Source: Phreatobacter cathodiphilus
GTDB taxonomy: Bacteria > Pseudomonadota > Alphaproteobacteria > Rhizobiales > Phreatobacteraceae
Direction: 5' to 3'
Length of the DNA stretch: 64,000 nt
NCBI RefSeq assembly: GCF_003008515.1
Contig: NZ_CP027668.1
Coordinates: 3,761,001-3,825,000 of the forward strand
Shown here: positions 45,988 through 56,955 of the stretch, in pieces
Numbering within the stretch: the first letter of the stretch is position 1
Layout: each line of letters begins with the position of its first letter
Translations under genes and position numbers: made by a program
Notes under the pieces: model-generated
Databases searched by the model: none
What the model saw: the letters and a program-made list of their open reading frames with translations, nothing else
Told to the model about the DNA's origin: nothing

Positions 45988-47193
45988 TCACCCCTCGTAG
46001 CGCCCGACGATGGAGATCGAGCAGACGTTCTGGTGCGGGAAGCCGCCGAGATTGTGGGTCAGCCCCAGCCGCGGCATGTCCTGGCGCTGCCGCTCGCCGG
46101 CGCGGCCCTGCATCTGCAGGTACATCTCGTAGATCATCCGGAGGCCCGAGGCGCCGATCGGATGGCCGAAGCACTTGAGGCCGCCGTCGATCTGGCAGGG
46201 GATCGTGCCGTCCGCGTCGTAGAAGCCGTCGAGGATGTCGTGGATCGCCCGGCCCTCGGCGGAGATGTGCAGGTCCTCCATGGTGACGAGCTCGGTCACC
46301 GAGAAGCAGTCGTGCACCTCGATCAGGCTGATCTCGTCGCGCGGCCTCTCGATTCCCGCCTCCTGATAGGCGCGGGTGGCGGCGATGCGGGTGGTGGCGA
46401 AATAGCTGCCGTCCCAGGAATTGTGCTGGGCCTCCGTGCCGTTCGACACCGAGACCTGCAGCGCCTTGACCGAGACGAGGTCGCGCTTGCCGAGGCTGCG
46501 GGCGATCTCCGGCGTCGTCACGATGGCGCAGGCCGCCCCGTCCGAGACGCCGCAGCAATCGTAGAGCCCGAGCGGCTCGGCGATCATCGGCGAATTCAGC
46601 ACCGTGCCGATGGTGATCTTGTTCCTCAGGTGCGCCTTGGCGTTGCGACCGCCATTGTCGTGGCTCTTCACCGAGACATGCGCCATGGCGCGCTTCAGGT
46701 CCTCCGGCGCCGAGCCGTGCTTGGCGCGATAGGCGGCGGCGAGCTGGGCGAAATAGCCCGGCGCCGAGGCGTTGGGCCAGGTCATGTTCGGCAGGGTGCC
46801 GCGGCCGCGCTGCGGCAGGCCGCCATAGCCGGTGTCCTTCAGCTTCTCGACGCCGAGGGCGAGCGCGATGTCGGCGGCTCCCGACGCCACCGCATAGACC
46901 GCGCCGCGGAAGGCCTCTGTACCGGTGGCGCAGAAGTTCTCGACGCGCGTCACCGGGATGTAGGGCAGGCGCAGCGCCACAGCGAGCGGCACGGCCGACT
47001 TGCCGACATGCTGCTCCTCGATGGCGGTGCCGAGCCAGGCGGCGTCGATCTGCTTGGTCTCAATGCCGGCGTCGCCGAGCGCCTCCGTATAGGCCTCGAC
47101 CATCAGGTCTTCGGCGTTCATGTCCCAGCGCTCGCCGAACTTCGAGCAGCCCATGCCGAGAATGGCGACCTTGTCGCGAATGCCCTTGGCCAT
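45988..47193 (-). CDS. SCP2-type thiolase / acetyl-CoA acetyltransferase family protein
   Basis: This 401-aa thiolase-superfamily protein has the nucleophile in VENFCATGTEAFRGA (Cys88), VHDCFSVTEL, and the catalytic-histidine loop CFGHPIGASG (His344), so the core residues are intact. It resembles SCP2/lipid-transfer thiolases that cleave branched or bulky 3-oxoacyl-CoAs, and the Ltp-type aldolases. It sits 3 nt after the fused HMGCS-like/DUF35 gene, so the two products probably form a complex, as thiolase, HMG-CoA synthase and DUF35 proteins do in archaea. A thiolytic versus aldolytic reaction cannot be decided from sequence. Confidence 0.82.
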   Translation of the reverse strand: MAKGIRDKVAILGMGCSKFGERWDMNAEDLMVEAYTEALGDAGIETKQIDAAWLGTAIEEQHVGKSAVPLAVALRLPYIPVTRVENFCATGTEAFRGAVYAVASGAADIALALGVEKLKDTGYGGLPQRGRGTLPNMTWPNASAPGYFAQLAAAYRAKHGSAPEDLKRAMAHVSVKSHDNGGRNAKAHLRNKITIGTVLNSPMIAEPLGLYDCCGVSDGAACAIVTTPEIARSLGKRDLVSVKALQVSVSNGTEAQHNSWDGSYFATTRIAATRAYQEAGIERPRDEISLIEVHDCFSVTELVTMEDLHISAEGRAIHDILDGFYDADGTIPCQIDGGLKCFGHPIGASGLRMIYEMYLQMQGRAGERQRQDMPRLGLTHNLGGFPHQNVCSISIVGRYEG

Positions 47194-47196
47194 GGA

Positions 47197-48657
47197 TCAG
47201 GCCCTCCCAGAGGTTTCGGTCTGCGCGGCCGGGGCCGCCTTCCAGAAATAGCGACGGAAGCCGCGCTGGCTGTCGATGTCCTTCACCCGGAACATCATCC
47301 GCATGGGATGGCCGACGGCGAGATCCTTCTCGTCCACGTCGGTAAAGTCCATCATCCAGCGGCCGCCCTCCTCGAACTGGATCATGCCGTAGCAGGCCGG
47401 CGGATCGGGCGAATAGGTCAGGCGGTCGGCGGTGTAGGAGTTGATCTTGCCGGTCTTGCCGGCGAAGGGCTCCGGCACCTGCGTGTCGATGGCGGTGCAG
47501 TTCGGATTGACGCAGACCCGCGTCTTCGGGAACTGCAGCGTGCCGCACTGGGTGCATTTGCCGCCGACGAAGGAGGTCACCGTCGCCCGGTTGCGCCACA
47601 GGGCCGAGAGGGCGGTCTGCTTGTCGGCCTCGGCGCGCATGCCGCGCTCCAGTTCGATCGTGTCGTTGAAGGCGAGGAACTTCGAATAGTTCGCCTCCTC
47701 CTTGCGGCGGGCGAGATGCCCCTTCACGCCCAGGCGGGCCGGCAGGTCGGCGATGGCGTCGGTCACCTCGAAGAGCAGGACGTCGGCGCCCTGGCCGAAG
47801 CCGACCACCATGATCTTCTCGCCGGGCTTCGCCGCCTCCAGCGCCGCCACCAGCATGACGAGCGGGTGGGCGGCGCCCGTCTCGCCGCAGACGGCGTGGA
47901 GATTGTCGGCCACCGCCGCGTCGGCGATGCCGGCGGCCTTGGCGACGGAATTGGCGACCTTGGCGAGGACCGCCGGCATGCAGAAGCGCGTCACCGCCTC
48001 CGGGCCGAGGCCGGCCTTGGCGAGGCAGGCCTTGATGGCGGGGGGCACCAGCGGCATGTAGCCGGCGTCGCGGATCCAGCGCTCCTCCCACTGGTAGTCG
48101 AATTCCGATTCCGGCGTCCGGTAATGGTCGACGAAATCGGCCGTGCGGGTGGCCGAGGCGAGCAGCGTCGCGACCGGTTTGCCCTCGCCGACGAGGAGGG
48201 CGGCGGCGCCGTCTCCCGCCGTCATCTCCAGCGGGCTCGCCGCCTTCACCGGGCGCTTCTCGGCCGCGAGGACGAGCGTCGCGGGGCCGCCGCGCAGCGC
48301 CGTCATCAGGGCGGAGGTCGCGGCGCGCTGGGTCTGGCCGGCGTCGCTGGTGGCGAGATCCTGTCCGAGGTTCAGCGCCTCGGAGACGACCCCGGAATTC
48401 AGCCGGTCGAGGAAGGGGAAGGTGGTCGAGGCCATTTGCACCGCCTCGACGCGGGTCGCGTCCTGCCCCGTCAGGCAGTCGCGCGCCGCCTCCACCGCCA
48501 TGGTGACCGCGTCCTCGTCCCAGTTGGCGATGGCCCGCTCGCCTTTTCCCTGGCCCTTGAGGGCGGCGTTGAACCAGCCATGGGCGTCGGCGATGGCTTT
48601 GCGCTGCAGGCGCAGGCGCGGGATATAGGCGCCGAAGGCGAGAATTCCGAAAGTCAT
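47197..48657 (-). CDS. HMG-CoA-synthase-like domain fused to a DUF35 Zn-ribbon/OB domain
   Basis: The 486-aa protein combines an N-terminal KAS III/HMG-CoA-synthase fold (residues 1-305; GILAFGAYIPRLRL, VVGFGQGADVLLFEV) with a C-terminal DUF35 module: a zinc ribbon with Cys368, 371, 382 and 387, then an OB fold. The region aligning with the nucleophile loop reads LATSDAGQTQRAATSAL and has no cysteine (none between 62 and 210), and the usual F-H-x-P is FCMP. It may thus be a scaffold or use different chemistry. Start MTFGILAFGAYIPRL at 48655-48657 fits the fold. Confidence 0.78.
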   Translation of the reverse strand: MTFGILAFGAYIPRLRLQRKAIADAHGWFNAALKGQGKGERAIANWDEDAVTMAVEAARDCLTGQDATRVEAVQMASTTFPFLDRLNSGVVSEALNLGQDLATSDAGQTQRAATSALMTALRGGPATLVLAAEKRPVKAASPLEMTAGDGAAALLVGEGKPVATLLASATRTADFVDHYRTPESEFDYQWEERWIRDAGYMPLVPPAIKACLAKAGLGPEAVTRFCMPAVLAKVANSVAKAAGIADAAVADNLHAVCGETGAAHPLVMLVAALEAAKPGEKIMVVGFGQGADVLLFEVTDAIADLPARLGVKGHLARRKEEANYSKFLAFNDTIELERGMRAEADKQTALSALWRNRATVTSFVGGKCTQCGTLQFPKTRVCVNPNCTAIDTQVPEPFAGKTGKINSYTADRLTYSPDPPACYGMIQFEEGGRWMMDFTDVDEKDLAVGHPMRMMFRVKDIDSQRGFRRYFWKAAPAAQTETSGRA

Positions 48658-48723
48658 GCTGGAAACCTCTGCGTCATGCCCGGCCTGGTGGCGGGCATCC
48701 ACGAATTTCTGTTCGCCCGGTGT

Positions 48724-49656
48724 TCACACCGGATCCCACGAGAAGATGTCGGCGGAGCGGTCGAGCGGATAGAAGGACGACTTCAGCGCCGGCATGCCGT
48801 GGCTGGCGAGACTGTCGCAGGTCCAGCCCCCGTCCCGATGGATGGAGCGGATCGGCCGCGACTGGCCCATCAGGAAAATCTCGTTCATGCGCACGGCGAA
48901 GATCTGGCCGGTGACGTCCTTCGCCCGGTCGGAGGCGAGGAAGGCCGAGAGCGGCGCGATCTTTTCCGGCCCCATGGCCTGCATGCGGGCGACGCGCGCC
49001 TTCTCGGCCTCGGTCTCCGTCGGGATCGTGCCGATGAGGCGGCTCCAGGCGAAGGGCGAGACGCAGTTGGAGCGCACGTTGAAGCGGGCCATGTCCAGGG
49101 CGATGGACTTCGACAGGCCGACGATGCCGAGCTTGGCGGCGGCATAGTTCGCCTGACCGTAATTGCCGATGAGGCCGGAGGTCGAGGTGAAGTGGACGAA
49201 GGCGCCGCTCGCCTGCTCGCGGAAGATGCGGGCCGCGGCGTGGGAGACGTAGAAGGTCCCCATCAGGTGCACCTTGATGACGAGCTCGAAGTCCGCGACG
49301 CTCATCTTGTGGAAGATGGCGTCGCGCAGGATGCCGGCATTGTTGATCACCGCGTCGAGGCCGCCGAAGGCGTCCACCGCGGTCTTGACGATGGCGTTGG
49401 CGGAAGCGGGCTCGGCGACGCTGTCGAAATTGGCGACGGCCTGGCCGCCCTTGGCACGGATCTCCTCGGCAACCTCCTCGGCCGGCGCGGCACTGGCGCC
49501 CGAGCCGTCGGCGGCGCCGCCGAGATCGTTGACGACGACCTTCGCCCCCTCGGCGGCGGCGGTCAGCGCGATCTCGCGGCCGATACCGCGCCCGGCTCCC
49601 GTCACGATGACGACCTTGCCCTCCAGAGCGCCCGTGCCCGCCATGCTGTTCCCCAT
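48724..49656 (-). CDS. SDR dehydrogenase, (3R)-hydroxyacyl-CoA dehydrogenase type
   Basis: This 310-aa short-chain dehydrogenase has VIVTGAGRGIGREIA, VVNDLGGAADGSGAS (typical of the peroxisomal multifunctional-enzyme type), VINNAGILRD and the active-site GNYGQANYAAAKLGIVG. The family oxidises (3R)-hydroxyacyl-CoAs to 3-oxoacyl-CoAs, which fits with the MaoC-type hydratase encoded nearby. A C-terminal extension of about 60 residues with a DGGWTCDS motif is present. Starts at 49656 or Met5 are possible. A GTTTC-N7-GAAAC operator candidate lies 76 bp upstream. Confidence 0.85.
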   Translation of the reverse strand: MGNSMAGTGALEGKVVIVTGAGRGIGREIALTAAAEGAKVVVNDLGGAADGSGASAAPAEEVAEEIRAKGGQAVANFDSVAEPASANAIVKTAVDAFGGLDAVINNAGILRDAIFHKMSVADFELVIKVHLMGTFYVSHAAARIFREQASGAFVHFTSTSGLIGNYGQANYAAAKLGIVGLSKSIALDMARFNVRSNCVSPFAWSRLIGTIPTETEAEKARVARMQAMGPEKIAPLSAFLASDRAKDVTGQIFAVRMNEIFLMGQSRPIRSIHRDGGWTCDSLASHGMPALKSSFYPLDRSADIFSWDPV

Positions 49657-49731
49657 GTCCTCGATGCGTCGTTATCGCCTGAATGGCGACCGTGGCCGAA
49701 CCATAGTCCGATCGTCAATTGAACGAAATCC

Positions 49732-49750
49732 CGTTTCATTCGCCGAAACG
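49732..49750. promoter_or_regulatory. IclR-type operator candidate, box 1
   Basis: CGTTTC-N7-GAAACG is a perfect 6-bp-arm inverted repeat in the 160-bp gap between the divergent SDR and acyl-CoA dehydrogenase genes. The 17-mer GTTTCATTCGCCGAAAC within it closely matches boxes at 54259 and 56939. Confidence 0.55.
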
Positions 49751-49816
49751 CCTGTCTTAGGATAGAGGCGGGCGCCGGGCCTCGAGCCTCCGCGCCGGGA
49801 TCAGGAGATGCGCGCC

Positions 49817-50956
49817 ATGACCGCCACCGCCGCCTATTACAAGGAGGAGCATCATCTCTTCCGCGAGGCCTGCCGCCGCTTCATCGCCGACGAGATCGCG
49901 CCCCACCACGCCCGCTGGGAGAAGGAGGGCGTGGTCGACCGCGAGGCCTGGCGGAAGGCGGGCGCCGCCGGCATGCTCCTGACCAACATTCCCGAGGCCT
50001 ATGGCGGCGGCGGGGCGGACTTCCTCACCAGCGCCATCATGATCGAGGAGATGATGGGCCACGTCTTCACCGGCCCGGGCTTCCGCCTGCACTCCGACAT
50101 CGTCGCCCCCTACATCCTCAACAACGCCTCCGAGGACCTGAAGCGCCACTGGCTGCCGAAGATGGCCTCCGGCGAGGCCATCGGGGCGCTGGCCATGACG
50201 GAGCCGGGGGCCGGCTCCGACGTCCAGGCGATCCGCACCACGGCGATCCGCGACGGCAACCACTATGTCGTCAACGGCCAGAAGACCTTCATCACCAACG
50301 GCCAGCTCGCCGACTTCATCCTCGTCGCCGCCAAGACCGATCCGAAGGAGGGCGCCAAGGGCGTCAGCCTCATCCTGGTGGAAGCCGACCGCGAGGGCTT
50401 CAAGCGCGGCCGCAACCTCGAGAAGATCGGCCTCAAGGCGCAGGACACCTCCGAGCTCTTCTTCGACAACGTCCGCGTGCCCCTGACCAACATCATCGGC
50501 GAGGAGGGGCGCGGCTTCGCCTATATGATGAACGAGCTGCCGCGCGAGCGCCTGCTGGTCGCCATCTCCGCCGTCGCGGTGATGGAATCGGCGCTGCGCT
50601 GGACCATTGACTACACCCGCGAGCGCAAGGCCTTCGGCAAGTCCATCGCCGAGTTCCAGAACACCCGGTTCAAGCTCGCCGAGGTGAAGACGGAGGTGAC
50701 GGTGGCCCGCGTCTTCCTCGACGACTGCATCGCCAAGTTCCTGCGCGGTGAGTTCGACGTCGCCACCGCCGCCATGGCCAAGTGGTGGCTGACCGAGCTG
50801 CAGGGCCGCATCGTCGACACCTGCTTGCAGCTCCACGGCGGCTACGGCTTCATGTGGGAGTATCCCATCGCCCGCGCCTATGCGGACAGCCGCATCCAGC
50901 GCATCTATGCCGGCACCACCGAGATCATGAAGGAGATCGTCGCCCGGTCTTTGTGA
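49817..50956 (+). CDS. Acyl-CoA dehydrogenase
   Basis: This 379-aa FAD enzyme introduces a trans-2,3 double bond into an acyl-CoA. It has IPEAYGGGGADFLTSAIMIEE, LAMTEPGAGSDVQAIRT (FAD/substrate), YTRERKAFGKSIAEFQ and LHGGYGFMWEYPIARAYADSRIQRIYAG, ending AGTTEIMKEIVARSL with a probable catalytic Glu in TTEIMKE, like long-chain types. The ATG at 49817 has AGGAG at good spacing; an ATG at 49808 abuts the ribosome site. It is the only rightward gene besides maoC in this island. Confidence 0.92.
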   Translation: MTATAAYYKEEHHLFREACRRFIADEIAPHHARWEKEGVVDREAWRKAGAAGMLLTNIPEAYGGGGADFLTSAIMIEEMMGHVFTGPGFRLHSDIVAPYILNNASEDLKRHWLPKMASGEAIGALAMTEPGAGSDVQAIRTTAIRDGNHYVVNGQKTFITNGQLADFILVAAKTDPKEGAKGVSLILVEADREGFKRGRNLEKIGLKAQDTSELFFDNVRVPLTNIIGEEGRGFAYMMNELPRERLLVAISAVAVMESALRWTIDYTRERKAFGKSIAEFQNTRFKLAEVKTEVTVARVFLDDCIAKFLRGEFDVATAAMAKWWLTELQGRIVDTCLQLHGGYGFMWEYPIARAYADSRIQRIYAGTTEIMKEIVARSL

Positions 50957-50963
50957 GTGGCGC

Positions 50964-51157
50964 TGCATGACGGCCAGTGCGTCCTTCGAGGCTCGCCACC
51001 GAACGATGCCGAGGCATCGCCGGGGCTCGCACCTCAGGATGAGGAGGGACTGAAACCTGCAAGCCGCGTCCGCACCTGATGCCGCGCACCCCCCCCTTCC
51101 TCATCCTGAGGTGCGAGCCTGACAGGCGAGCCTCGAAGGACGCACTTGCCCGATGCA
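50964..51157. repeat. Palindromic intergenic repeat, copy B
   Basis: This is a second copy of the element at 38801-38994: the same outer arms (TGCGTCCTTCGAGGCTCG and its complement) and inner arms (CTCGCACCTCAGGATGAGG and complement), with different spacer sequences. Total length is again about 194 bp. It sits between the acyl-CoA dehydrogenase stop and the maoC start, both rightward, so it may separate two transcripts or modulate read-through. Confidence 0.9.
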
Positions 51158-51196
51158 GGCGGAAGACCTGCGACTGGTTCCCGAGGACACCCCCCA

Positions 51197-52054
51197 ATGC
51201 CCATCGACTACGACAAGCTGAAGAACTGGCACTTCCCCGACCTCGAGCACCGCTACGAGGCGAAGGACACCATCCTCTACGCCCTCGGTGTCGGCTGCGG
51301 CGCCGATCCCGTGGACCGCACGGAGCTCCCCTTCGTCTACGAGGACGGCCTGAAGGCGCTGCCCACCATGGCCGTGGTGCTCGGCTATCCCGGCTTCTGG
51401 CTGAAGGACCCGAATACGGGCGTCGACTGGCGCAAGGTCCTGCATGGCGAGCAGGGTCTCGTCATCCACAAGCCGCTGCCCGCCACCGGCACGGTGATCG
51501 GCCGCACCCGCGTCACCGAGATCGTCGACAAGGGGCCGGGCAAGGGCGCGCTGCTCCTCTCCGAGCGCGACGTGGTCGACAAGGCCTCCGGCGACCTGCT
51601 GGCGACGCTCACCTCCACCACCTTCATCCGCGGCGAGGGCGGCTTCGGTGGCCCCTCGGGACCGACGCCCGAGCCCCATCCCCTGCCCGAGCGGGCTCCC
51701 GACGAGGCCGTCGACCTGAAGACCCTGCCCCAGGCGGCGCTGATCTATCGTCTGTCCGGGGACTACAATCCCCTCCACGCCGATCCGGACGTCGCCCGCG
51801 GCGCCGGTTTCGAGCGGCCGATCCTCCACGGCCTGTGCACCTATGCGGTGGCCGGCCGGGCGATCCTCAAGGCCTGCTGCGGCAACGACCCTGCGCGGCT
51901 GAGGCGCCTCGACGTGCGCTTCTCCGCCCCGGTCATGCCGGGCGAGACGATCCGCACCGAGATCTGGCGCGACGGCGGGGTGATCTCGTTCCGCGCCCGG
52001 GTGGTGGAGCGCGACGTCGTCGTGCTCACCAACGGCCTCGCCGAGGTCGGCTGA
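51197..52054 (+). CDS. MaoC-family 2-enoyl-CoA hydratase (hydratase 2 type)
   Basis: This 285-aa double hot-dog protein resembles the R-specific hydratase-2 part of multifunctional enzyme 2. The hydratase motif is present: LSGDYNPLHADPDVARGAGFERPILHGL carries the Asp-His pair (in pieces, SGDYNPLHADP and GFERPILHGL). The N-terminal half is a degenerate hot-dog (ILYALGVGCGADPVD). It would hydrate trans-2-enoyl-CoA to (3R)-hydroxyacyl-CoA for the SDR nearby. Start at 51197 follows a weak site; farther upstream is repeat sequence. Confidence 0.88.
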   Translation: MPIDYDKLKNWHFPDLEHRYEAKDTILYALGVGCGADPVDRTELPFVYEDGLKALPTMAVVLGYPGFWLKDPNTGVDWRKVLHGEQGLVIHKPLPATGTVIGRTRVTEIVDKGPGKGALLLSERDVVDKASGDLLATLTSTTFIRGEGGFGGPSGPTPEPHPLPERAPDEAVDLKTLPQAALIYRLSGDYNPLHADPDVARGAGFERPILHGLCTYAVAGRAILKACCGNDPARLRRLDVRFSAPVMPGETIRTEIWRDGGVISFRARVVERDVVVLTNGLAEVG

Positions 52055-52075
52055 CCCCGGCGCGGCGGCTTAGGG

Positions 52076-53065
52076 TCAGGCGGGAGTCAGCCCGAGCTTG
52101 CGCACGTTGTCGATCCAGACCGGGCCTTCCGCGTCGTAGACCTTCTTGAAGTCGGCATGGCCGAGGACCGGCTCCTCGATGCCGAAGGTCTCGTTCAGTT
52201 TGCGGATGCGCTCGGTCTGTGCGGCCTCCAGCATCAGGGTGGAGACGGTCTCGACCATCGCCTGCGGCATGGAGGACTGGCCGAGAAAGCCGACCCAGCT
52301 CAGCAGCCGGAACACCGGGTTGTCGAGGCCCTGTTCGACGAAGGTCGCCGTGTTCGGCAGCGCCTTCATGCGCCGGGTCGAGGGAATGGCGATGGCCGTG
52401 CCGGCATTGGCGTCCAGCACCGCCTTGGCCGCCGTAAAGCTGCCCATGGCCACCTGGCTGTTGCCGGTCAGCACGTCCTGCCACATCGGCGCCTCGCCGC
52501 GATAGTTCACCACGGTCATGTCGAGCCCGAACTGCTGGTTCAGGGCGTTGCAGACGATATGGGCCATGGACCCCGCCGCATAGGAGCCGAAACTGACCCG
52601 GTTCTTGCGGGCGAAGTCGACGAATTGCGCGATGGTTGTCGCCCCCGTCGCCTTGGCGGCGACCAGCGGCAGGCTTCCGGTGGGCAGCAGAGCCAGCAGC
52701 GCGAAATCCCTGTCCGGATCGTAGGCGAGGTTCTTGAACATGACGCGGTTGCCGAACAGCGTCGTCGAGATGGTGATCATGATGGTGTGGCCGTCGTCAG
52801 GCGCGGTCTTCATCGCCTGGGCGGCGATGCCGCCGCCGGCGCCGGGCCGGTTTTCCACCACGACGGTCTGGCCGCTCTTCTGGCTGAAATACTCGCCATA
52901 GGCGCGCGCGAAGGCGTCGGTGATGCCCCCGGCCGGGAAGGCGCAGATGATCTTGAGCGGCTTGGTCGGCCAGGCGGCACCTTGGGCCCGCACCAGGGCG
53001 GGCGAGGCGAGGGGCAGGAGGGCGCCGGCGGCGACCAGCCGGCGGCGGGAGAGCGGGAAGGGCAT
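52076..53065 (-). CDS. Tripartite tricarboxylate transporter (Bug) substrate-binding protein, paralogue 1
   Basis: This 329-aa periplasmic TTT receptor has a Tat-like signal (SRRRLVAAGALLPLASPALVRA), the ligand loop ICAFPAGGITDAFARAYGEYF, VVVENRPGAGGGIAAQAMK and FGSYAAGSMAHIV. Bug receptors bind carboxylates via two beta-strand hairpins. No TctA or TctB permease is present, so the transporter must be elsewhere or the protein senses ligand. It is highly similar to its upstream neighbour along its whole length, indicating tandem duplication. A half-site like the island's operators (GTTTCAGTC, 53117-53125) lies about 52 bp upstream. Confidence 0.9.
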   Translation of the reverse strand: MPFPLSRRRLVAAGALLPLASPALVRAQGAAWPTKPLKIICAFPAGGITDAFARAYGEYFSQKSGQTVVVENRPGAGGGIAAQAMKTAPDDGHTIMITISTTLFGNRVMFKNLAYDPDRDFALLALLPTGSLPLVAAKATGATTIAQFVDFARKNRVSFGSYAAGSMAHIVCNALNQQFGLDMTVVNYRGEAPMWQDVLTGNSQVAMGSFTAAKAVLDANAGTAIAIPSTRRMKALPNTATFVEQGLDNPVFRLLSWVGFLGQSSMPQAMVETVSTLMLEAAQTERIRKLNETFGIEEPVLGHADFKKVYDAEGPVWIDNVRKLGLTPA

Positions 53066-53170
53066 GGGCGGTCCTCGGGATTGAACTGCGGGCTTCTGTG
53101 TCCCGTCGTGAATCGCGTTTCAGTCTAGGGCCGTCCCCGTCGAAACGGGGCTGCGACCGATCGTCAGGGC

Positions 53171-54154
53171 TCAGCTGGGCGTGACGCCGAGCCGGTTGAG
53201 GTGATCGAGCCAGATCGGCCCCTGGGTCTCGTAGATGTGGCGGAAGAAGCGGTGGTCCTGCGCCGTGTCGTCGATGCCGAACGTGGCGGTGAGATTGCGG
53301 ATGCGTTCGGTCTTGCCGGCCTCCACCATCATGTCCGAGATCTGCTGCACCATCTCGGCGGGCATCGAGGCCTTGCCGAAGAAGCCGGCCCAGCTCATCA
53401 GGTCGAAGACGGGGTCCTTCAGGCCCTGTTCGGCATAGGTGGCGACATCCGGCAGGGTGGACATGCGCTTGCCCGTGGGCACGGCGATCGCCACGCCTGC
53501 GCCGGTGTCGAGTACGCCCTTGGCGGCGGTGTAACTGCCCATGGCCACCTGGCTGCTGCCGGTCAGCAGGTCCTGCCACATGGGCGCCTCGCCCCGGTAG
53601 TGGACGATGGTCATGTCGAGGCCGAAGCGGCGGTTCAGTTCGGCGCCGACGATATGGGCGAAGGAGCCGGCGGCATAGGAGCCGAAGCTGGTGCGGTTCT
53701 TCTTCGCGAACTCGACGAACTCGGCGATGGTCTTCGCCCCCGTCGATTTCTGCGCCACCAGCGGCAGGTGCCCGGTGGACATGATCGCGAGGAAGGAGAA
53801 GTCCTTGTCCGGGTCGTAGGGCAGGTTCTTGAACATCACCCGGTTGCCCAGCATGGTCGAGGAGATGGTGATCATCAGCGTGTGCCCGTCGTCGGGCGCC
53901 GCCTTCAGCGCCTGGGCGGCGATGCCGCCGCCGGCCCCGACGCGGTTCTCCACCACCACGGTCTGCCCGCTCTTCTGCTGGATGTAGTCGCCATAGGCGC
54001 GGGCATAGCCGTCGGTGATGCCGCCGGCCGGGAAGGCGCAGAGGATGCGCACCGGCCGGTTCGGCCAGGCCCCCTGGGCGCGCAGCAGGGGGGGCGCCGC
54101 CACGCTGGCGGCTGCGGCCAGCATGAGGCCGCGGCGGGAGAATCGATGACGCAT
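53171..54154 (-). CDS. Tripartite tricarboxylate transporter (Bug) substrate-binding protein, paralogue 2
   Basis: This 327-aa protein is the paralogue of the gene downstream, with the same order of motifs: signal SRRGLMLAAAASVAAPPLLRA, ILCAFPAGGITDGYARAYGDY, VVVENRVGAGGGIAAQALK and FGSYAAGSFAHIV. The differing residues are spread through the ligand-contact loops, so the two may bind different acids. Start: ATG at 54152-54154 (MRHRFSRRGL), just before the signal; the longer frame upstream is not conserved. It lies between paralogue 1 and the IclR gene, with an operator candidate about 105 bp upstream. Confidence 0.9.
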   Translation of the reverse strand: MRHRFSRRGLMLAAAASVAAPPLLRAQGAWPNRPVRILCAFPAGGITDGYARAYGDYIQQKSGQTVVVENRVGAGGGIAAQALKAAPDDGHTLMITISSTMLGNRVMFKNLPYDPDKDFSFLAIMSTGHLPLVAQKSTGAKTIAEFVEFAKKNRTSFGSYAAGSFAHIVGAELNRRFGLDMTIVHYRGEAPMWQDLLTGSSQVAMGSYTAAKGVLDTGAGVAIAVPTGKRMSTLPDVATYAEQGLKDPVFDLMSWAGFFGKASMPAEMVQQISDMMVEAGKTERIRNLTATFGIDDTAQDHRFFRHIYETQGPIWLDHLNRLGVTPS

Positions 54155-54258
54155 GGTGTTCCCTCCGGATCGTTCTTGTCGGGCTTTGCCCTTGGGGCCC
54201 TCCGGGCCCGTACGAATCCTCTCACGCCTGTGGGTCAGGGTCAAATCGCCGAAACACC

Positions 54259-54275
54259 ATTTCGGACAATGAAAC
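54259..54275. promoter_or_regulatory. IclR-type operator candidate, box 2
   Basis: On the minus strand this reads GTTTCATTGTCCGAAAT, a GTTTC-N7-GAAAT site upstream of the TTT receptor paralogue 2. It overlaps a perfect palindrome CCGAAA-N5-TTTCGG at 54249-54265. Both lie in the 130-bp gap after the iclR stop. Confidence 0.55.
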
Positions 54276-54284
54276 AAGCGGAAA

Positions 54285-55106
54285 CTAGTCCGCCTTGGCC
54301 CCGCCGGGTGCCCAGAGGGTCGCGCGGAACTTGTCGGTCAGCGCCCGGGCGATCTGGGTCGCTGTCTCCTGCAGCGGCGCGAGAAAGTTCCTCACCGCGT
54401 CCTCCACCGAGATGACCCCGTGCAGCATCATGATGTTGATGCTGGCGAAGACCTCGTCGCCGTCGCGCACCGGCACGCCCATGGCCCAGACGCGCCCGTC
54501 GAAGACGTGCTGGCTATAGGCCTCGTCCATCAGCGCGTAGCCCTTCTCGCGCACCTCGGCGAGGAGCGGGGCGAGCTTCTTCGGCTGGCGGGCGAGCTCG
54601 GTCGACTTGCCCGGGATGGCGGCGAGCAGGGTGATGATCCGCTCCTGCTGCTCCTCGGGGCAGAAGGCGAGATAGGCCCGGCCCATGGAGGTGGAGAGAA
54701 GCGGAAACCGGAAGCCGGGCCGCCGCGAGAACAGCATGGAGCCCGGCTCGCGCGTCGTTTGCGCCACGATCATCGCGTCGCGGTCGAAGATGGCGATGTC
54801 GGAGGGCCAGCCGATCTGCTTGCGGAACTCGTGCATGATCGGTTCGGCGACGCCGCCGATCCACAGGTGCTGGTCGTAGCCGTGGGAGAGCAGCAGGCAG
54901 CGCCCCGTTGGCAGGTACTCGGTCCGCTCCGCGTCCCGCATCACGTAGCCCTCGTGCTCCAGCGTCTCGAGCATGCGCACGATGGTCGCCTTGTTCAGGC
55001 CCGTCGCCTTGTGCAGCGAACCCACCGTCGACCGCCGCTCGGCGTTCAGCACGCGCAGGATTTCCAGGCCGCGCGACAGCGCAATGACGGGCTCGAAGGA
55101 AGGCAT
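54285..55106 (-). CDS. IclR-family transcriptional regulator
   Basis: This 273-aa regulator has the N-terminal winged helix (RSTVGSLHKATGLNKATIVRMLETLEHEGYV) and a C-terminal GAF-like ligand domain (about 85-265) with SMGRAYLAFCPEEQ, as in MhpR-like members. IclR proteins act as repressors or activators of catabolic genes and bind short inverted repeats. Three matching 17-bp boxes in the surrounding island make it the likely regulator of those genes. Its ligand is unknown, plausibly an acyl-CoA or carboxylate imported via the TTT receptors. Confidence 0.88.
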   Translation of the reverse strand: MPSFEPVIALSRGLEILRVLNAERRSTVGSLHKATGLNKATIVRMLETLEHEGYVMRDAERTEYLPTGRCLLLSHGYDQHLWIGGVAEPIMHEFRKQIGWPSDIAIFDRDAMIVAQTTREPGSMLFSRRPGFRFPLLSTSMGRAYLAFCPEEQQERIITLLAAIPGKSTELARQPKKLAPLLAEVREKGYALMDEAYSQHVFDGRVWAMGVPVRDGDEVFASINIMMLHGVISVEDAVRNFLAPLQETATQIARALTDKFRATLWAPGGAKAD

Positions 55107-55193
55107 CTCGGGTTCCTGATCGTCCCGCCGGGCGGTGCCCGGCGGGATTCGCCAAGGATATCATCACAAACCGTATTGGATGTCCCGTTCGTC

Positions 55194-56081
55194 TCAGGCC
55201 GTGCGGCTGGCGCGGTCCTTCTCGTTCGCGGCGCGGATCATCTCGCTCATCGCCTGCCATTCCGCGTCCGACATCTTCGACAGACCGTAGAAATTGCCGC
55301 CCGAGGCGTTGTAGCGCGCCCCATCGATGGCGATGGTCTGGCCGGTGAGGTACTCGCAGCCGTCCGCCATCAGGAAGGTGGCGAGGTTCTTCAGCTCCTG
55401 CATCTCGCCGTTGCGCCCCATCGGGCTGCCCTCGCGGCCCTTGTCCTCCTCGGCCGCGAGGCCGGGATTGAGCCGCTCCCAGGCGCCCTTGGTGGGGAAG
55501 GGGCCGGGCGCGATGGCGTTGAGGCGGATGCCGTAGCGGCCCCATTCGGCCGCCAGCGACTGGGTCATGACGTTGATGCCGGCCTTCGACATGGCGGAGG
55601 GCACGGTGAAGGGCCCGCCGTTCCACACCCAGGTGGTGAGGATGGAGATGACCGAGGCCTTGTGGCCGCCGGCGATCCAGCGCTTGCCGCAGGCGAGCGT
55701 CACGTAGAACGAGCCGTGGAAGACGATGCCGGCGATGGCGTCGAAGCCGCGCGGCGACAGGTCCTTGGTCGGGCTGATGAAGTTGCCCGCGGCATTGTTG
55801 ACGAGGCCGGTCAGGGGGCCCGCGGCAAAGATCTCCTCGATCATCTCCTCCACTGCCTGGGCGACGCGGATATCGACCGAATGGGTGATGACCTTACCGC
55901 CGTGGCGGTCCATCAGCTCGCGCGCCGTATCGTCCAGCACGCCCTTGCGGCGGCCGCAGATATGCACCGTCGCGCCGAGGCGCAGATAGTCCTCGGCCAT
56001 CTCGCGGCCGAGCCCCGTGCCGCCGCCCGTCACCAGGATGCGCTTGCCGGCGAGCAGGCCGTCCTTGAACATGGTCTCCAT
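55194..56081 (-). CDS. SDR reductase, 2,4-dienoyl-CoA-reductase-like
   Basis: This 295-aa short-chain dehydrogenase has ILVTGGGTGLGREMAEDYLRLGA, VNNAAGNFISPTKDLSP and an unusual active-site region SAMSKAGINVMTQSLAAEWG followed by LNAIAPGPFPTKGAWERL, closely like animal peroxisomal/mitochondrial DECR. DECR enzymes reduce 2,4-dienoyl-CoA with NADPH during oxidation of unsaturated acyl chains; note that the SDR tyrosine is missing here (SAMSKAG), as in DECR. The likely product then enters via the crotonase encoded 20 nt upstream. Confidence 0.83.
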   Translation of the reverse strand: METMFKDGLLAGKRILVTGGGTGLGREMAEDYLRLGATVHICGRRKGVLDDTARELMDRHGGKVITHSVDIRVAQAVEEMIEEIFAAGPLTGLVNNAAGNFISPTKDLSPRGFDAIAGIVFHGSFYVTLACGKRWIAGGHKASVISILTTWVWNGGPFTVPSAMSKAGINVMTQSLAAEWGRYGIRLNAIAPGPFPTKGAWERLNPGLAAEEDKGREGSPMGRNGEMQELKNLATFLMADGCEYLTGQTIAIDGARYNASGGNFYGLSKMSDAEWQAMSEMIRAANEKDRASRTA

Positions 56082-56101
56082 GCGAAATCCTCCCGTCGGC
56101 C

Positions 56102-56893
56102 TCAGCGGCCCTTGAAATCCGGCCGGCGCTTGCCCCTGAAGGCCGCGACGCCCTCGCCGAAATCGTCGCTGCCGAAGGCGACCACCTGCGCCATGGCCTC
56201 GAATTCGAGGAAGCCCTCGATCGGCAGTTCATAGGCGCGGCGCATCAGCCGCTTGGTGAGCCCCAGCGACACCGTGGGCCCGGCGGCGAGCGCCTGCGCC
56301 GTCTCCATCGCCGCCGCCATCAGCGCCTCGGGCTCCGCGAGTCGCGCCACGAGCCCCATCTGGTGGGCCTCCTCCGCCGAAACCTCCCGGTTGGTGAGCA
56401 GGATGTCGCTGGCGCGCTGGTAGCCGACGGCGCGCGGCAGCGTATAGGCGAGGCCGAGATCGGCCGCCGCCCCGAGACCGGGAAAGCCCGCCTTGAATCG
56501 CGCCTCCCGCGAGGCGAGGATGATGTCGCCGGTCAGCGCCAGCGACAGGCCGGCGCCGGCCGCCGCTCCGTTCACCGCGCAGACGATGGGCTTGTCGGCG
56601 GTGAGCAGCGGGATCAGCCACCTGTAGGTGCGCGTCATCCGGGTCTTCACCGAGAGGGTGCCGCGGTCGTCCATGGAGCGGATGTCGCCGCCGGCGCAGA
56701 AGGCGCGGCCCGTGCCGGTGATGACGACGGCCCTGACCTCCGGATCGGCGAGGAGCCCCGGCAGGGTCTCTTCGATCCCCGCCTTGATGCCGCCGGACAT
56801 GGCGTTCATCGATTTCGGCTCGTTCAGCACGAGGGTGGCGACGGCGCCGTCCCGCCTCACCAGCACCGAAGCTTCTGTCGTCGCGTCTGTCAT
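56102..56893 (-). CDS. Enoyl-CoA hydratase/isomerase (crotonase family, PaaG-like)
   Basis: This 263-aa crotonase has the oxyanion-hole segment FCAGGDIRSM and GAAAGAGLSLALTGDIILAS, followed by FKAGFPGLGAAADLGLAYTLPR. The first glutamate of typical hydratases is kept (SREARF), but the second is absent and an aspartate occupies the DLG position, as in isomerase-type PaaG. It may therefore isomerise rather than hydrate. It is 20 nt upstream of the DECR-like gene and has an operator candidate 46 bp upstream. Confidence 0.85.
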   Translation of the reverse strand: MTDATTEASVLVRRDGAVATLVLNEPKSMNAMSGGIKAGIEETLPGLLADPEVRAVVITGTGRAFCAGGDIRSMDDRGTLSVKTRMTRTYRWLIPLLTADKPIVCAVNGAAAGAGLSLALTGDIILASREARFKAGFPGLGAAADLGLAYTLPRAVGYQRASDILLTNREVSAEEAHQMGLVARLAEPEALMAAAMETAQALAAGPTVSLGLTKRLMRRAYELPIEGFLEFEAMAQVVAFGSDDFGEGVAAFRGKRRPDFKGR

Positions 56894-56938
56894 GCCATGT
56901 CCTCCGGCGGTCGTCCGGGCAACCGCGGACGAACCGTC

Positions 56939-56955
56939 GTTTCAGTGGACGAAAT
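56939..56955. promoter_or_regulatory. IclR-type operator candidate, box 3
   Basis: GTTTCAGTGGACGAAAT is the third copy of the GTTTC-N7-GAAAY pattern. It lies 46 bp upstream of the crotonase gene, in its presumed promoter. Confidence 0.55.

Follow-up and report, generated by a model that had tools for sequence, protein, structure and literature searches.

The island of catabolic genes in the 64,000-nucleotide window analysed here from Phreatobacter cathodiphilus (genome positions 3761001-3825000) raises the question of what regulates it and how far this control would extend. The initial annotation built the island around three matching 17-bp boxes, GTTTC-N7-GAAAY, and an IclR-family regulator gene, and proposed an IclR regulon. 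From the sequence comparisons, we consider it very likely that these boxes serve as operators for the product of the iclR gene at 54285-55106, an IclR-family regulator which would control a dispersed pathway for acid uptake and breakdown. The proposal held up, as the motif was observed to follow this iclR gene across genomes, to stay with target genes located far from it and to be of IclR type in both box sequence and geometry.

All three boxes were recovered by exact sequence match, with GTTTCATTCGCCGAAAC at 49733-49749 (+), GTTTCATTGTCCGAAAT at 54259-54275 (-) and GTTTCAGTGGACGAAAT at 56939-56955 (+). Their gene context was also as described: they are located at a divergent SDR/acyl-CoA dehydrogenase (ACAD) pair, at TTT receptor 2 (TTT2) and at a crotonase, with the iclR gene in the same island. 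The 17-mer gave four strand-matches in the window, which represent three places because the 49733-49749 site matches on both strands. The mean in 100 dinucleotide shuffles was 0.08 and none of these (0/100) contained four or more. In the whole genome (4,494,445 bases in one contig) we found nine strand-matches at seven places and none for a reversed-control pattern, with about four expected per genome from a first-order Markov simulation. The initial annotation had named chance frequency throughout the genome as speaking against its proposal, and this is not what we observed: the 17-mer alone is mildly enriched genome-wide, about twofold above simulation, and the 26-bp element described below is far above it. 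Furthermore, the three places are clustered (P of about 5e-8 for 7.2 kb and about 3e-5 for 64 kb) and their clustering in the island is not due to chance. A genome scan with the tighter consensus of the initial annotation, GTTTCAKTSKMCGAAAY, found only these three places at zero or one mismatch, a result which is partly circular because the consensus was derived from the same sites.

The sequence of the 17-mer was correct but it forms only two thirds of the element: at all three sites a third box is located 3 bp away. The full 26-bp element, CGAAAY-N3-RTTTC-N7-GAAAY, begins at window positions 49724, 54250 and 56930:

49724..49749, + strand: operator O1, CGAAAT-ccc-GTTTC-attcgcc-GAAAC, between the divergent SDR1 and ACAD genes, no mismatch to the 26-mer
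54250..54275, + strand: operator O2, CGAAAC-acc-ATTTC-ggacaat-GAAAC, between iclR and TTT receptor 2, no mismatch
56930..56955, + strand: operator O3, CGAACC-gtc-GTTTC-agtggac-GAAAT, upstream of the crotonase-SDR2-iclR run, one mismatch

Boxes 1 and 2 form an inverted pair, as do boxes 2 and 3. Boxes 1 and 3 repeat in the same direction at a distance of 20 bp (two helical turns), on the same face of the DNA. At up to one mismatch the 26-mer occurs at four places in the genome, which are the three window sites and 3834611-3834636, 9.6 kb past the window end. Exact 26-mers were found three times in this genome and in none of 12 simulated genomes. Across orthologous promoters the boxes keep their alternating directions and are conserved together, in an alignment built from pattern-selected sites where the information at the pattern positions is circular; the only conserved positions independent of the pattern are the ATT after box 2 and the C before box 2. 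Two further places of the 17-mer in the genome (1254164 and 3005174) gave no 26-mer match at up to two mismatches in the surrounding stretches and were set aside.

The proposed cognate regulator is located beside O2:

54285..55106, - strand: IclR-family transcription regulator, 273 aa, with HTH_IclR and IclR_C domains

The predicted product belongs to the IclR family, as both domains are above the curated Pfam cut-offs (PF09339, HTH_IclR, 46.7 bits with a cut-off of 22; PF01614, IclR_C, 64.9 bits with a cut-off of 24). We compared 12 genomes of the genus (genus assignment inferred), including G000-G011, and ten of them carry a close iclR with at least 77% identity (G000, G001, G002, G004-G007 and G009-G011). 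At up to one mismatch the 26-mer was found at 46 sites in 11/12 genus genomes and at none for the reversed control. By hand assignment from gene maps, 41/46 of these sites are at promoters of the regulon gene set. The other five occur in G007 (three) and G003 (two), where one of the G003 sites precedes a gene run ending in an IclR of 39% identity (G003-C15). Exact 26-mers were present in 10/12 genus genomes as opposed to 7/385 others of the order, with 5/397 for the reversed control, and the exact matches outside the genus are near background.

The presence of the operator was observed to track this iclR and not the target genes. O1 is absent in the two genus genomes without a close iclR (2/2; G003 and G008), although both keep the block of SDR1, the HMG-CoA-synthase-like (HMGCS) fusion and thiolase/ACAD, with identities of 83-84% for SDR1 and 82% for the thiolase. 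The best IclR of these two genomes has 44-46% identity, is encoded elsewhere and has a changed helix (NAATAIR vs NKATIVR). The presumed recognition helix is NKATIVRMLETLEHEGYV, whose position in the regulator we take from the helix-turn-helix fold. It is identical in the window protein, eight other genus genomes and G298, and one residue differs in G007 and Rhodovulum sp. PH10. In addition, the SDR1/ACAD and ligase genes keep their sites when located far from iclR, at 213 kb on the same contig in G005 and on another contig in G011.

The motif was also found in more distant relatives, at or close to their own genes. In Rhodovulum sp. PH10 (iclR 61%) ACAD/SDR1 has an exact site and iclR is preceded by a two-mismatch site, and G298 (62%) has a one-mismatch site between iclR and TTT2. 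Sites were observed in G113 (46%) both at iclR and where its own split ACAD-ECH (enoyl-CoA hydratase) run begins, while in G039 (37%) a site precedes a TRAP-transporter run which ends in its own iclR. Sites with at most one mismatch at iclR or before its run were found for the regulators of G298 (62%), G113 (46%), G003-C15 (39%), L045 (39%) and G039 (37%).

The initial annotation treated the island as one regulated system. The regulon was supported but its boundaries were not, as it continues outside the window. Three further sites of this genome are located there, O4 at 3834611, O5 at 3477074 and O6 at 2343016, and the predicted regulon would accordingly include two acyl-CoA ligases (O4), a split ACAD pair (O5) and a Liv-type ABC transporter (O6). 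Among the genus genomes with a close iclR, O1 was found as a site without mismatch in 10/10, and both O2 and O3 with at most two mismatches in 8/10. G005 and G011 have a site upstream of iclR instead of O3, and G007 has both. O4 was observed in 9/9 testable genomes, the G001 contig seeming to end inside the gene, and O5 in 7/8 genomes with a close homologue (G005 and G011 gave no match at E 1e-80). O6 sites are present in eight genomes, while in G007 the ligase and Liv genes have a single common site. Members found in single lineages are a CoA-transferase (G005 and G011), TTT receptor-like genes (G005, G006 and G011) and another Liv operon (G007). A fourth box, which would give two full palindromes about two turns apart as in tandem IclR palindromes with a spacing of 18-22 nt, was not seen as a general feature in the group-weighted site profile, and a GCTTC-like fourth box was found in 6/7 of the aligned O4 operators, with G006 and G010 matching that register on the other strand.

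Two arrangements in G007 were also noticed. At L064:3023-3048 the divergent ligase and Liv ABC operons, which are separate in Phreatobacter cathodiphilus, have one common operator. At L065:3019-3044 another cluster has divergent ACAD-like and MaoC-like genes with a one-mismatch site between them, one of the three G007 sites outside the regulon gene set, which perhaps marks a further regulon member.

Several observations weigh against a regulon of this single regulator. O2 was not found at up to two mismatches in G006 and G010, O5 was not found in G007, and no O6-like site was seen at up to two mismatches in G002, whose Liv gene was not examined. O5 and O6 of the window genome, with two mismatches each, were accepted because they are conserved in other genomes. 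At this threshold the 12 genus genomes gave 136 strand-matches compared with 14 for the reversed control, many of them off these genes. Of the 136, 20 were in G003 and 13 in G008, neither of which has a close iclR; three other two-mismatch places in this genome (272103, 797332 and 4353081) have no adjoining BLAST match to the regulon set. The two-mismatch pattern alone is therefore unreliable and such sites were counted only where conserved. Outside the genus, 6/7 exact matches have no recognised iclR or regulon gene within 6-6.5 kb, as expected of background, and G113 has two more one-mismatch sites inside called open reading frames (ORFs) away from iclR. G391, whose IclR (46%) has a near-identical helix, has a three-mismatch site in the 500 bp by iclR and no site at up to two mismatches in 18 kb. 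The promoter elements considered below are predicted, having been read by eye from alignments. Finally, another IclR of the genome could share the sites, as at least 19 HTH_IclR matches were found in it, with seven strong ones among the matches listed (54285-55106 included).

In the two genus genomes without this regulator, the SDR1/ACAD promoter carries CGGAAATCAATTCCGCCTTACGGAAT (L139:13323-13348 in G008 and L140:11554-11579 in G003), in which the three-box geometry is kept and GAAA is replaced by GGAA. At one mismatch this GGAA-type element was found in 4/14 G003/G008 loci, two overlapping loci per genome and all at SDR1/ACAD. The element could equally be a TetR palindrome. A conserved AT-rich stretch, TGAAYTATAATTTCACTAGATGAAA, was also observed upstream of the 44-46% IclR (L060:9443-9467, -; L061:10177-10201, +) with three-box-like spacing, where Y marks a difference between the two genomes.

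Suvorova and Gelfand (2021) defined group 1 and group 2 IclR motifs and predicted three-box operators for 32/181 orthologous groups with 199 regulators (PMC8222616). The Phreatobacter element resembles these operators in its three alternating boxes and IclR-family regulator. RTTTC-N7-GAAAY fits the group 1 motif GKTYCRYW3-4RYGRAMC in box bases and spacing and partly in the inner seven bases, and YGAAAY-N3-RTTTC fits the group 2 motif TGRAACAN1-2TGTTYCA at the three window operators (O3 with one mismatch) and in the genus, except that the inner A/T is not kept (motifs as given in PMC8222616). PcaU, PobR and HmgR are described there as using a palindrome with an external direct-repeat half-site, and the third box beside the palindrome is needed for PcaU binding; the third box and the regulator family are common with Phreatobacter, whereas the PcaU box is GTTCG-like (Table 1 of PMC8222616) and the Phreatobacter boxes are GTTTC/GAAAY. 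The genes differ from those of PcaU, PobR and HmgR, since the Phreatobacter sites are at genes of CoA-dependent acid catabolism with no ring-cleavage gene among those identified. The regulator scored 124.2 bits with the PcaR/PcaU/PobR model TIGR02431 (cut-off 284.75) and 185.8 bits with the PRK09834-type model NF007341 (PRK09834.1-3; cut-off 269), below the cut-off in both cases. We take PRK09834-type regulators to be MhpR-like, and COG3181, COG2030 and COG1545 to be TctC, MaoC and DUF35 respectively. These three COGs are associated with three-box IclR regulons (PMC8222616). The enterobacterial KdgR RWWGAAACGNCGTTTCAKKA and IclR TGGAAATNATTTCCA sites (Table 1 of PMC8222616) have GAAAY and RTTTC facing each other as in boxes 1 and 2 of Phreatobacter, but they have two boxes, other spacing and pectin or glyoxylate genes. 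The regulator is also far below the cut-off of the KdgR model (52.5 of 275 bits) and the IclR model (46.7 of 380).

No paper pairing Phreatobacter with IclR, or Phreatobacter with a regulon, was returned by our literature searches. Given the same geometry and near-identical box sequences, the Phreatobacter operator is a new and well-conserved example of the known three-box type of IclR control, unless it is already listed in the supplement of PMC8222616. The regulation is of the ordinary IclR kind, though the case is unusually clean. An unnamed catabolic island thereby becomes a defined regulon open to testing, with at least six promoters, of which three are outside the window, and in which one operator ties together transporters, ligases and beta-oxidation enzymes. 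This narrows the search for the substrate. It also supplies defined DNA targets for testing the proposed two-way use of three-box operators by dimers, which is presented in PMC8222616 as an assumption to be validated.

The position of the operator with respect to predicted promoter elements suggests how the regulator might act. Two -35-like elements are found in the window:

54240..54244, - strand: TTGAC (-35-like) for TTT2, 5 bp from box 1 of O2
49714..49718, - strand: TTGAC (-35-like) for SDR1, 5 bp from box 1 of O1

TTGAC was observed beyond box 1, towards TTT2, in 9/9 O2 sites with a gap of 4-7 bp and, towards SDR1, in 9/11 O1 sites with a gap of exactly 5 bp. At O5, TTGAC occurs 25-33 bp before box 1 in 7/7 sites and a TATCNT -10 within a few bases of box 1 in 3/7. 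A dual regulator is favoured, at modest odds, since the operator is just upstream of the -35 at O1 and O2 and at the presumed start site at O5. The regulator would recognise CGAAAY-N3-RTTTC-N7-GAAAY with more than one dimer binding cooperatively. From a position next to the TTGAC -35, on its upstream side, it might recruit polymerase to the SDR1 and TTT2 promoters, and at the split ACAD pair it would occupy the start site and might block transcription. Self-control through the ECH-SDR2-iclR run is probable too, as iclR is the third gene behind O3. The ligases, transporters and beta-oxidation enzymes together indicate a carboxylic acid substrate, and the effector may be such an acid or its CoA ester. 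Uptake would involve the TTT receptors and the Liv-type ABC transporter, and activation the two acyl-CoA ligases. CoA-dependent beta-oxidation would follow with ACAD, the split ACAD pair, the MaoC hydratase, crotonase, the two SDRs, the HMGCS-DUF35 fusion and thiolase.

We considered three other explanations for the sites. That AT-rich words cluster here by chance, in a genome of 70% GC, is extremely improbable: half-sites are indeed common, with GTTTC or GAAAC occurring 69 times in the window, but the whole boxes far exceed the 0.08 expected there, the simulated genomes contained no exact 26-mer and conservation at the same promoters across the genus refutes it. The sites might instead be operators of a different regulator, an IclR paralogue or a TetR-type beta-oxidation repressor, with the neighbouring IclR binding elsewhere. 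The many HTH_IclR proteins of the genome would allow this, and the CGGAAATCAATTCCGCCTTACGGAAT element in G003/G008, together with the two TetR proteins near it in G008, implies that the SDR1/ACAD promoter can be run by other factors. We nevertheless regard it as unlikely, because the GAAAY motif tracks this iclR and not the target genes, distant IclR relatives carry it at or near their own genes and the box sequences fit the IclR consensuses quoted from PMC8222616.

With the neighbouring IclR retained as the regulator, it could still be a plain repressor at all promoters, in which case the -35-like elements beside O1 and O2 would not be promoters. This has a real though somewhat less than even chance. 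O5 is just downstream of TTGAC in 7/7 alignments, where the start site is expected; the IclR family includes repressors, activators and dual regulators (PMC8222616) and PheR is a recent example of a repressor (PMC13273656). The 4-7 bp and 5 bp placements of TTGAC beyond box 1 of O2 (9/9) and O1 (9/11) are, by contrast, where an activator would be expected. The best NCBIfam models, PRK09834 and PcaR/PcaU/PobR, also point away from a plain repressor although all are below cut-off, since PcaU is an activator (as cited in PMC12285266).

A more speculative idea, which we hold to be rather doubtful, is that one regulator puts the same operator to two uses, possibly by switching between box pairs (group 2 vs group 1 dimer). 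Located 5 bp upstream of TTGAC, the operator would be an activator site for SDR1 and TTT2, whereas at the split ACAD start it would be a repressor site. If true, the GGAA three-box element at the SDR1/ACAD promoter of G003/G008 would in addition be a natural case of an operator and its regulator drifting together.

The genes of the island are as follows:

45988..47193, - strand: thiolase family protein, last gene of the SDR1 run (NF004810, above cut-off)
47197..48702, - strand: HMG-CoA-synthase-like protein fused to a ChsH2-type zinc-ribbon/OB domain, after SDR1 (profile matches)
48724..49656, - strand: SDR1, reductase, divergent from ACAD (PF13561/PF00106)
49808..50956, + strand: acyl-CoA dehydrogenase, ACAD (PF02771/PF02770/PF00441)
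51146..52054, + strand: MaoC-type hydratase, after ACAD (PF22622/PF01575)
52076..53065, - strand: TTT-type solute receptor 1, TctC (PF03401)
53171..54154, - strand: TTT-type solute receptor 2, TctC, adjoining iclR downstream (PF03401)
55194..56081, - strand: SDR2, best NCBIfam match 2,4-dienoyl-CoA reductase, below cut-off
56102..56893, - strand: crotonase/enoyl-CoA hydratase (ECH), first gene behind O3 (PF00378)

For TTT receptor 2 the start at ATG 54154 was preferred over 54277, the start of a longer ORF with which O2 would fall inside the gene. The ORF picker misplaced or missed genes in related loci (SDR1 in G007, TTT2 in G001 and over-long starts covering sites), and gene places in nine related loci were checked by tblastn. 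A half-site had also been proposed before TTT receptor 1. It is broken already in the closest relative (G001, L081) and was not seen at this place in the remaining rows of the alignment, of which L058 spans only a small part of the stretch; it was rejected as chance. No operator was found before TTT receptor 1, which is perhaps transcribed by read-through from TTT2.

Literature searches returned nothing recognised as matching this gene set, and the family and PDB searches suggest a substrate class only as far as CoA-dependent acid catabolism in which one component is PhlA-like or HMGCS-like. The HMGCS-like fusion has four PDB matches, which include PhlA (5m3k) and HMG-CoA synthase (6esq). This HMGCS-like/DUF35-type fusion (47197-48702) adjoins the thiolase (45988-47193) inside a bacterial catabolic run; such components also make up the PhlACB acyltransferase and the archaeal thiolase/HMGCS/DUF35 complex.

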